From contig NZ_HE611017.1 of the NCBI RefSeq assembly GCF_000236865.1, forward strand, positions 178,060 through 217,944: 39,885 nucleotides of DNA, read 5' to 3'. A program made the translations under genes and the position numbers. The DNA comes from Senegalimassilia anaerobia JC110. GTDB lineage: Bacteria; Actinomycetota; Coriobacteriia; Coriobacteriales; Eggerthellaceae. Positions 26,964-30,142 of the stretch are shown one piece after another; position 1 is the first letter of the stretch, and each line of letters begins with the position of its first letter. A model generated the notes under the pieces. It saw nothing but the letters and a program-made list of their open reading frames with translations. It ran no database searches and was not told where the DNA came from.

Positions 26964-28007
26964 ATGGAAAACTACGCCGAAAAGAATTCAAGTTCTGCCG
27001 AAAAATCAAACGGAAGCTACGCCGCAGGACAGGGAAACCCACTTTACGACATGTTCGTCTCACAGCTTACGCAGCTGCACACTGTATGCGCGAAGGAAGC
27101 GCTCGCGCGCGGATTCGGACGGGCCGACCTGGTGCGAAGCGTCGGCGAGACATGGTTCGTCGACCCCCAATACGGCAGGGGCTCCTACTGGTTCTATCTC
27201 ATGGACGGTGACACCATCGTCGTGTCGATGGACATCACATACGAACGCGCCGTGGAGGCAGTCATAGAGACTATTCCCTATCTGGGGTTCGGCCTCTATG
27301 AGCATGCGATGCCCATGTATTGCTCGCCCGAGTGCGCCGCATCCAACTGCAAGCTCATGGGGCATGACTGGGATGGCGGCCCCTACATAAGCTCGTTCGA
27401 GCCCGACAAGCGGCTGTCATCGGCATCGATCACCATAGCCCCTGAAGCGATACACCGCTATGCGGATGCCTTGCACTGCGATGAGAAGAAACTGCACCGC
27501 GCCATCGGACGGCTCACCACGTCGGAGGGCGTGCCCGGCTTGCCCTCGGCGCTTCGAGGGCTCGACATCACCTACCCCGCCGCATCGGTCGCCGATTCGT
27601 ATTATCACGCCAAGGTGATTGAATGCTTCGCGCTGCTGGCAAGCAGCATTCCCGAAAGGGTCACGTCAGCCGATGCCGTGAACATAAGCGACAGGGACTG
27701 CGTCGAGTGCCTCTGCTCCTACATCGACGACAACTTATCATCCGATCTCAGCACGAAAACGTTGTGCGACATCGCCCATGTAAGCGAGGGGAAGATGATA
27801 TCGGCGTTTCGCAATGTGCAGGGGGACACCCCGCAAAGCTACATCCGCGCACGGCGCCTGGAGCACGGACGACGCCTTCTCCTTGATGAAAGCCGCAAAA
27901 TCAGCGAAATCGCCAAAAGCGCGGGCTACCGCAACCAGGGAGCGTTCACTGACGCGTTCAAGCGCGCCTACGGCACGACGCCACGCACCTATCGCAAAAG
28001 ACTATGA
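26964..28007 (+). CDS. AraC-family transcriptional regulator
   Basis: A 347-residue regulator. Residues about 245-345 form the double helix-turn-helix of the AraC family (LSTKTLCDIAHVSEGKMISAFRNVQGDTPQSYIRARRL, then ISEIAKSAGYRNQGAFTDAFKRAYGTTPRTYRK). The N-terminal 170 residues form a ligand or partner domain I cannot name, with several Cys (MPMYCSPECAASNC) that could bind metal or sense redox state. It is transcribed away from the ECF/ABC operon across 94 bases, so it most likely controls that operon according to substrate or metal supply. The ribosome site (GGGAAG) is weak. Confidence 0.9.
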   Translation: MENYAEKNSSSAEKSNGSYAAGQGNPLYDMFVSQLTQLHTVCAKEALARGFGRADLVRSVGETWFVDPQYGRGSYWFYLMDGDTIVVSMDITYERAVEAVIETIPYLGFGLYEHAMPMYCSPECAASNCKLMGHDWDGGPYISSFEPDKRLSSASITIAPEAIHRYADALHCDEKKLHRAIGRLTTSEGVPGLPSALRGLDITYPAASVADSYYHAKVIECFALLASSIPERVTSADAVNISDRDCVECLCSYIDDNLSSDLSTKTLCDIAHVSEGKMISAFRNVQGDTPQSYIRARRLEHGRRLLLDESRKISEIAKSAGYRNQGAFTDAFKRAYGTTPRTYRKRL

Positions 28008-28050: not shown

Positions 28051-29430
28051 CTAACCCAGGCGGCGCGACTTCGTCTCGGGGCCGATCGCCAGTGTAACGG
28101 CGGCCGCCACCAGCGCGATGGCCACGATGCCGAAATAGATGACGTTGGGCTGCAGGTTCGCCAAGACCCACGTGACGGCGAACGGCATGACCACGTTGAC
28201 GGCCTTGCCGGCGCCCTGCGAGATGCCAGCACCGCGGAAACGGTACCTGGTGGAGAACAGCTCGCCCACGTACACGCTGATCACCGACGCGTTCAGCACG
28301 TAGAAACCGATGGTCATCAAAAAGCCCAGCACGGTGATGAGCGCCGTCGAGCCGGCGTTGAGCGCCATGGCGTAGGCGAACGCGAACACCGCCACCCAGA
28401 TGAACGCACCGGAAACCTCGACGCGACGGCCGAGCTTCTCGATGAGCAGCGCGCCGATGAGCGCTCCGAGCGGCGCGGCAAGCATGGTGATGGTGGTGGA
28501 CAGCAACGAGGTCTGCGTGGCCAGGCCGATGTTTTTCAGGATGGACGGGCCGAACGTGGTGTAGGTGTACTGCGTCAGCGACGTGCCGATGACCACCACG
28601 ATGCCCAGGAACAGGTTGCGCGCCAGATGTGCGTCGGAATCCATGGCGCTCTTTTCGAAAACCACCTGCTCAGCAGGAGAAATACCGGCTTCCCTCATCT
28701 CACACTCGATGCGGGAGATGATCGCCTCGGCGTCATCGAAGCGGCCGTGCTGGATGAGCCAGCGCGGGCTTTCCGGCATCGCCTGACGCGCGATGCACAC
28801 GATGATGGCCGCCACGCCGATGACCGCGAACACCAGACGCCACGATTCCTGCCCAAGCGGGCTCCAAATGGTGATGAAGAACAAGCACAGGAACATGCCG
28901 ATGGGCGAGCCGCAGTTGGCGATGGTCGAGCCGATGGCGCACCAGCGGCCGCGGCGCGCGACGGGCGCGAACTCGTTGATCATGCTGAAGCTGGTCACCA
29001 GCTCCGACCCCAGGCCAAGGCCCACGAAAAAGCGCATGGCTATCATGAACGTCATGTTCGGGGAAAGCGCGCCCAAGATGGTGGCGAAGCCGAACAGCAG
29101 CAGGTTGAACTGGAACGCCTTGCGACGCCCGAGCTTGTCGCCGATAAGGCCGGCGATCAGCGAGCCGATGAACAGGCCCAAAAAGCCCGCCGACAGAAAC
29201 GCCGCCGTCTGCTCGTTGGTGGCGAACCCGGTTTCGGCCAGTGTGCTCTTCACGCCGCCCGCCAGGTAGACGTCCATGGCGTCCACGAACACGCCGGCCG
29301 AGGTCAGCGCCATCACCTTCTTGAACGTAGCCGTCGGTTGCGTGGCGTCCATGCGGTGCATGAGATGCGCGGCGCGGTCGACGCCTTCGCCCGCCTGCCC
29401 GCTCGACGCGGTTTCGTCTGCTTGCGACAT
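28051..29430 (-). CDS. MFS transporter, sugar/organic-acid porter type
   Basis: A 459-residue, 12-helix major facilitator. The family loops are present: LIGDKLGRRKAF after helix 2, ESPRWLIQHGRFDDAEAI at the end of the N-half (typical of the sugar-porter/organic-acid branch), LLIEKLGRRVEVSG in the C-half, and PETKSRRLG at the end. The substrate is unknown. The start at 29430 has AGAAGGGA upstream; the frame stays open to 29613, but that region forms two strong hairpins and is read here as an untranslated leader. It converges on the AraC gene with a 43-base gap lacking a terminator. Confidence 0.88.
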   Translation of the reverse strand: MSQADETASSGQAGEGVDRAAHLMHRMDATQPTATFKKVMALTSAGVFVDAMDVYLAGGVKSTLAETGFATNEQTAAFLSAGFLGLFIGSLIAGLIGDKLGRRKAFQFNLLLFGFATILGALSPNMTFMIAMRFFVGLGLGSELVTSFSMINEFAPVARRGRWCAIGSTIANCGSPIGMFLCLFFITIWSPLGQESWRLVFAVIGVAAIIVCIARQAMPESPRWLIQHGRFDDAEAIISRIECEMREAGISPAEQVVFEKSAMDSDAHLARNLFLGIVVVIGTSLTQYTYTTFGPSILKNIGLATQTSLLSTTITMLAAPLGALIGALLIEKLGRRVEVSGAFIWVAVFAFAYAMALNAGSTALITVLGFLMTIGFYVLNASVISVYVGELFSTRYRFRGAGISQGAGKAVNVVMPFAVTWVLANLQPNVIYFGIVAIALVAAAVTLAIGPETKSRRLG

Positions 29431-29465
29431 GGTTTTCCCTTCTGCTTCTGCCTGCAACCGAAAAC

Positions 29466-29533
29466 AAAAAAAATCCGCACGAGGGCATGCACGGCTAACA
29501 ACAATGCGGTTAGCGTGCAGCCGACGAGCGGAT
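29466..29533 (-). terminator. Intrinsic terminator inside the MFS leader (attenuator)
   Basis: On the minus strand a long imperfect stem (about 22 pairs: 29509-29533 with 29473-29499, two bulges, three mismatches) is followed at once by eight T (29466-29473). It ends about 36 bases before the MFS start codon and points into that gene. No gene upstream on this strand needs ending, so it fits a regulated attenuator. Confidence 0.72.
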
Positions 29534-29551
29534 TCATCGTTCTTGGTTGCG

Positions 29552-29600
29552 GGCTCCTTGCCGATGGCCGAAGGATCGCTTCGGGCATCGGCAAGGAACC
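29552..29600 (-). ncRNA. Long hairpin in the MFS leader (candidate attenuator sensor)
   Basis: A stem of about 22 pairs with a 5-base loop: arms ccttgccgatg-gccgaag and cttcggg-catcggcaagg, extended by ggct/aacc. It lies 19 bases upstream of the terminator stem. It could be the sensing half of a cis-regulatory RNA. It matches no riboswitch class I can name. Confidence 0.5.
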
Positions 29601-29633
29601 TGTTTCGTAACACCTATCGTTCTACGGCGCCAA

Positions 29634-29639
29634 ATCATA
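29634..29639 (-). promoter_or_regulatory. Candidate -10 of the MFS transcript
   Basis: Minus-strand TATGAT; start near 29627 would give a leader of about 197 bases. The -35 is weak. Confidence 0.4.
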
Positions 29640-29644
29640 CTACT

Positions 29645-30029
29645 TTGCTTTGGGTTTGGGATTTTCCGCAGGCGAACCCGGGAGATAAGACACAAACCCG
29701 CCACACAGCAGGGTCGATGGAGAAGGGGCCGCAACGTGAACGAATCGCGTTTCGCCGTCCGGGCCCCAGTTCGCGCGCCTCACCCGCCGCACCCCTCGCC
29801 AGCCGCCGGCAGCCGTCGAAGCTCGCTTCGCCCGCACCCGCAACACGCCCTTCGCCATCCGCCTCCGCTCCGCCCGCACCCGCGCACCCCTCAGCACCCT
29901 CGCAAGGCCGTCGCGCAGCGCCTGCCGCCTCGCGCCCTCTCTTCCGCAAGCCCTTCCGCTCCGTCGCGCCAGCGCTCTGCGCCCGCGAACCCCCGCGACG
30001 CCCGTTAATTTCGCATTCCAAAATCCCTA
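29645..30029. other. Strongly C-over-G skewed non-coding stretch
   Basis: A region of nearly 400 bases between the divergent MFS and APC genes. From about 29750 to 30000 the plus strand is dominated by C (cgcacccgc, gcctccgctccgcccgc) and G lies mostly on the other strand. Open frames on both strands are low-complexity Arg/Pro or Arg/Gly strings without ribosome sites. I see no gene. Confidence 0.5.
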
Positions 30030-30077: not shown

Positions 30078-30142
30078 GCGCTGTCGCATGCACGATAGGC
30101 ATCGGGCATGCGACAGCGCGCCGACCCGCCAACACGGTCGGC
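30078..30142 (+). promoter_or_regulatory. Two hairpins in the APC permease leader
   Basis: First, a perfect 14-bp stem (30078-30091 with 30106-30119). Second, a 7-bp stem gccgacc/ggtcggc (30120-30126 with 30136-30142). The ribosome site AAAGGA follows 7 bases later. There is no T-run; a role in translation control or mRNA stability is possible. Confidence 0.55.

Follow-up and report, generated by a model that had tools for sequence, protein, structure and literature searches.

A conserved, structured 5' leader of probable attenuator type upstream of a rare MFS transporter gene

The MFS transporter gene in the window, by which we mean the whole 39,885-nucleotide stretch analyzed here (it lies on contig C4 of an Eggerthellaceae-type genome of 2.4 Mb), is preceded by a structured leader that is best read, with a probability of roughly 0.6, as an attenuator-type 5' leader. 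This reading draws on the strong fold and its U8 shortly before the gene, on the conservation of promoter block, leader and gene together in one ortholog (L013), on compensatory changes in the stems, on the single copy in the genome, and on a 19-bp hairpin followed by U7 in another ortholog (L014). The elements of the leader and its gene are the following:

28051..29430, minus strand: MFS transporter gene, 459 aa, downstream of the leader (Pfam Sugar_tr 5e-51, MFS_1 6.8e-33)
29438..29443, minus strand: Shine-Dalgarno sequence AGAAGG, with the ATG 7 nt further on (from the sequence; SD-like sequences are equally spaced in L013 and L014)
29466..29473, minus strand: U8 tract of the terminator (from the sequence and a terminator scan)
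29472..29534, minus strand: terminator hairpin AAUCCGC...GCGGAUU (from folding; conserved in L013)
29454..29550, minus strand: outer helix around the terminator and U-tract in the full-length RNA (from folding and the L013 comparison)
29552..29600, minus strand: hairpin 1, 21 bp with internal mismatches and the loop CGAUC (from folding and the L013 comparison)
29634..29639, minus strand: putative -10 box TATGAT, with a probable start near 29627 (TATGATTT in the window, L013 and L014)
29685..29705, minus strand: conserved upstream block TGTGnCGGGnTTGTGTCTTAT, a possible activator site (19 of 21 bases identical between the window and L013)

The leader spans 197 nt between the likely start site and the MFS start codon at 29430. 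The two stems and eight U's that a sequence-only reading had described before this start codon are present (29600-29552, 29534-29472 and U8 at 29473-29466), with 35 nt between U8 and the ATG; as in an intrinsic terminator, a stable hairpin and a U-tract lie in the 5' UTR and are oriented into the gene. Absent from that description is the outer helix, in which GCAACC (29550-29545) pairs with GGUUGC (29459-29454) over six pairs, and AGAACGA pairs with UUGUUUU. The transporter itself scores above no subfamily cut-off in NCBIfam. A sigma-70 scan found no full promoter at the leader and no good -35 element. With no good -35 in the promoter, and with the conserved block TGTGnCGGGnTTGTGTCTTAT positioned 46-66 nt ahead of the -10 box, initiation may be under the control of an activator too.

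The region upstream of the MFS gene contains no co-directional gene for about 700 bp. The next gene is an APC permease (ATG at about 30161) which is divergent, so that no co-directional gene needs a terminator, as the earlier reading had stated. In the leader of this permease gene (30078-30123, plus strand), some 15 bp recur almost perfectly in inverted orientation (GGCGCTGTCGCATGC ... GCATGCGACAGCGC) without a T-run, a putative hairpin or operator. The absence of a co-directional gene bears on the possibility that the terminator merely insulates the transporter from stray upstream transcription, with the gene's own promoter lying in or after the hairpin. Such a role is favored by the presence of a co-directional upstream gene in both L013 and L014. 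The window, however, has no such gene, the 35 nt from U8 to the ATG contain no promoter-like site, and the -10-like sequence upstream of the leader is common to all three orthologs; insulation is thus an unlikely account of the terminator.

The structure of the leader is beyond chance. The leader region folds at -100.7 kcal/mol, compared with -66 +/- 4.6 kcal/mol in 200 dinucleotide shuffles (z -7.5), and the 197-nt leader taken alone gives a z of -8.0 against shuffles. A background of 440 kb from the host genome (a 400-kb sample and the window, with genes and terminators called by crude in-house means) contains 160 terminator-like sites. The terminator hairpin (-35.2 kcal/mol) shares second place among these in stability, and of the 12 sites directed into a gene start no more than 80 nt away it is the strongest. 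In the host genome, leader terminators are not rare and a terminator close before a gene is not unique: a crude scan of 400 kb yielded 11 other candidates, some of them downstream of tRNA or other genes. Further attenuator candidates are strong terminator-like hairpins 28-32 nt before crude gene starts at about 4754 of L024 and about 17409 of L041 (plus strand); at both, the gene upstream has the opposite orientation and Rfam gives no match. The outer helix is not unusual in itself, as 124 of the 160 terminator-like sites have some pairs across the U-tract, and only compensatory changes can therefore count in its favor. A mobile or repeated palindrome was also considered and rejected, since the leader is present in a single copy in the genome and no such palindrome occurs in relatives.

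The closest MFS ortholog, L013 (UBA5906; 88% protein identity), keeps the promoter box, leader and gene as one homologous block amid neighbors that differ from those in the window. The homology begins at window position 29705, the first base of TGTGnCGGGnTTGTGTCTTAT; in L013 this point lies 18 nt beyond the stop codon of a co-directional gene that is unrelated. Because the block spans the promoter box, leader and gene amid other neighbors, the leader belongs to the transporter and not to its surroundings. This inheritance also bears on whether the region is a small-RNA gene of about 160 nt, with two hairpins and its own terminator, that acts in trans while the MFS mRNA arises by read-through. 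A promoter-like box, two stable hairpins and U8 do make up a complete small-RNA unit, yet the leader accompanies the MFS gene where the neighborhood differs and is absent wherever the MFS gene is absent, which makes a trans-acting RNA very unlikely.

Among 50 consensus pairs compared between the window and L013, four show two-sided changes, five show one-sided changes and none is broken, whereas simulated substitutions break 5.3 pairs on average and leave every pair intact in 0.1% of trials. The comparison favors the consensus, which comes from these same two sequences. If the structure of either sequence is used by itself, there are still more two-sided changes than in the simulation (P 0.0065 and 0.003), but the counts of broken pairs (7 of 55 and 3 of 53) are only marginal (P 0.06 and 0.02). 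The changes are distributed over all three elements: hairpin 1 contains two two-sided changes; the terminator hairpin contains one two-sided change (GC to AU) and one one-sided change; and the outer helix contains one two-sided change (AU to GC), two one-sided changes and no broken pair. The covariation is that of a single comparison, since just two homologous leaders exist. A lack of stem conservation in relatives had been named as an observation that would count against a regulatory RNA; the stems are kept in one relative, L013.

Translation of the long frame from 29613 had been named in the same way. One could suppose that this frame, which is open in both the window and L013, is translated, or that the frame from 29537, for instance, encodes a leader peptide, and one stretch of the terminator with seven of nine substitutions in a single codon phase points in that direction. 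This bias also falls on paired positions, and is only partly accounted for. Indels of 1, 2 and 2 bases, however, break the frame from 29613 locally, no start codon is common to the window and L013, the substitutions in hairpin 1 lack codon periodicity (7/7/2), and a Shine-Dalgarno sequence precedes the downstream ATG in all three orthologs. The long frame is thus not kept as a coding frame and its translation is unlikely; a coding explanation of the leader as a whole is highly improbable. The frame at 29537-29313 (minus strand) runs through the terminator hairpin, and begins with the hydrophobic MNPLVGCTLTALLLAVHALVRIFFVF, which has rare Leu codons; the corresponding stretch of L013 shares its reading frame with the transporter, and the start codon and Shine-Dalgarno sequence are not common to the two.

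The transporter is rare. It occurs in 3 of 138 genomes of the family (E <= 1e-90) and in 2 of 396 genomes of the class sample (E <= 1e-80), with the window's genome counted in both. The third ortholog, L014 (79% protein identity), contains a 19-bp hairpin and U7 directly before the Shine-Dalgarno sequence. The similarity of its leader to the window leader is no better than that of shuffles, and the L014 leader was rejected as a homolog; conservation with the downstream gene therefore extends to the whole block in L013 and to architecture alone in L014. The L014 hairpin could simply end transcription of an upstream purM-like gene. A covariance search with homologous leaders, which the sequence-only reading had proposed, matches only the window and L013 among the 138 family genomes and the window alone among the 396 class genomes, under the strict filters used for searches of more than 40 genomes, with which weak matches may be lost. 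A blastn search of phage and plasmid records found nothing, and a 19-base pattern searched in viral contigs identified three stretches, none of which fits the covariance model.

The suggestion of a cis-regulatory RNA with an attenuator is borne out in that the leader is structured and conserved, ends like an intrinsic terminator and is inherited with the MFS gene; that it senses anything is not supported so far. A metabolite-sensing riboswitch of unknown class, perhaps one whose aptamer lies within the terminator like that of HMP-PP riboswitches, draws support from the high conservation of the apical half of the terminator between the window and L013, from the transporter function of the downstream gene, and from the precedent of a terminator-embedded aptamer without a separate platform (PMC6478431). 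Against it, folds of the growing transcript in the window and L013 form hairpin 1 first and the terminator next, and pseudoknot-free folds of truncated and full leaders from the two species contain no antiterminator that competes for the terminator arm, before or after that arm is made. The leader also matches no Rfam family, the motif is confined to two examples of one gene in two species, and the leader is not kept in L014. As had been noted earlier for known riboswitches and T-boxes, Rfam 15 (T-box and riboswitch classes included) gave no match above the gathering cut-off and nothing relevant at permissive thresholds; the same library does detect a SAM riboswitch elsewhere in the genome, where an aptamer at 327-421 of L024 (G000:C1) scores barely above the gathering score. 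A riboswitch is accordingly rather unlikely, and a sensor role of the leader is unsupported so far. Equally doubtful is the proposal that the two hairpins and the terminator-wrapping helix constitute a cis-regulatory RNA of a new and very rare sort (either an aptamer or a protein-binding antitermination site) that is specific to the transporter and senses its substrate. That the leader is wholly different in L014, yet a hairpin and U-tract recur before the Shine-Dalgarno sequence, would suggest that a brake is kept and not a specific sensor.

Candidate protein factors were searched for in the host genome. No BglG/LicT-type RNA-binding domain (CAT_RBD) was found, and the positive controls matched; a search for ANTAR proteins gave no match, and likewise none in the control genomes. 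The neighboring AraC gene (26964-28007) was rejected as a linked regulator, as no such gene adjoins the orthologous transporter genes in the stretches examined. The genome encodes one NusG paralog, a second NusG-domain protein of 178 aa (L022 1498-2034, G000:C3), which is located beside a sugar-transferase gene and resembles the RfaH/LoaP/UpxY type tied to polysaccharide clusters.

Taken as an attenuator, the leader most likely works by default termination with partial or factor-assisted read-through. Transcription would start near 29627 and hairpin 1 would fold first; the terminator hairpin would then fold when the polymerase reaches U8, and most transcripts would stop near 29466, with a length of about 160 nt. 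Those that continue past this point would bear the Shine-Dalgarno sequence and allow the transporter to be made. The default state would be OFF or low, since hairpin 1 and the terminator are not mutually exclusive. The extent of read-through would depend on polymerase and NusA/NusG-like factors, or on some RNA-binding factor, and not on an alternative RNA fold. Alternatively, the leader may be a constitutive brake. If the attenuator proposal is true, it adds an uncharacterized attenuation leader in Eggerthellaceae, a family whose RNA regulation has received little study, and could help to find the substrate of an MFS transporter that is so far unassigned.

Leader terminators and transcription attenuators of transporter genes have been found by synteny (Naville and Gautheret 2010, PMC2965389), and attenuating terminators before transporters are a recognized, mostly uncharacterized group (PMC2965389). 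The MFS leader resembles these in having an intrinsic terminator in the 5' UTR, near the start codon of a transporter, that is conserved with the gene between relatives. It differs in that the ABC-leaders described there can form an antiterminator, none of which was found in the MFS leader, and in that the gene here is of the MFS type and the host belongs to the class Coriobacteriia. Like the HMP-PP (thiS motif) riboswitch, it consists of a conserved terminator hairpin directly before the gene with no separate platform (PMC6478431); the thiS motif, however, is known from hundreds of examples across two phyla and has a conserved loop and a pseudoknotted fold that competes (PMC6478431), whereas there are two examples of the MFS leader and its folding revealed no competitor. 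With ANTAR-, BglG/LicT- and LoaP-type antitermination leaders it shares a terminator whose read-through could need an RNA-binding factor. Unlike BglG/LicT-type systems, the host genome lacks the BglG-type RNA-binding domain, and unlike LoaP, a specialized NusG paralog linked to its target operon, the host's paralog is on another contig from the transporter. Leader-terminator control of this kind is common; the leader described here is real, conserved and ordinary in kind, and is a new orphan example of the attenuator type.
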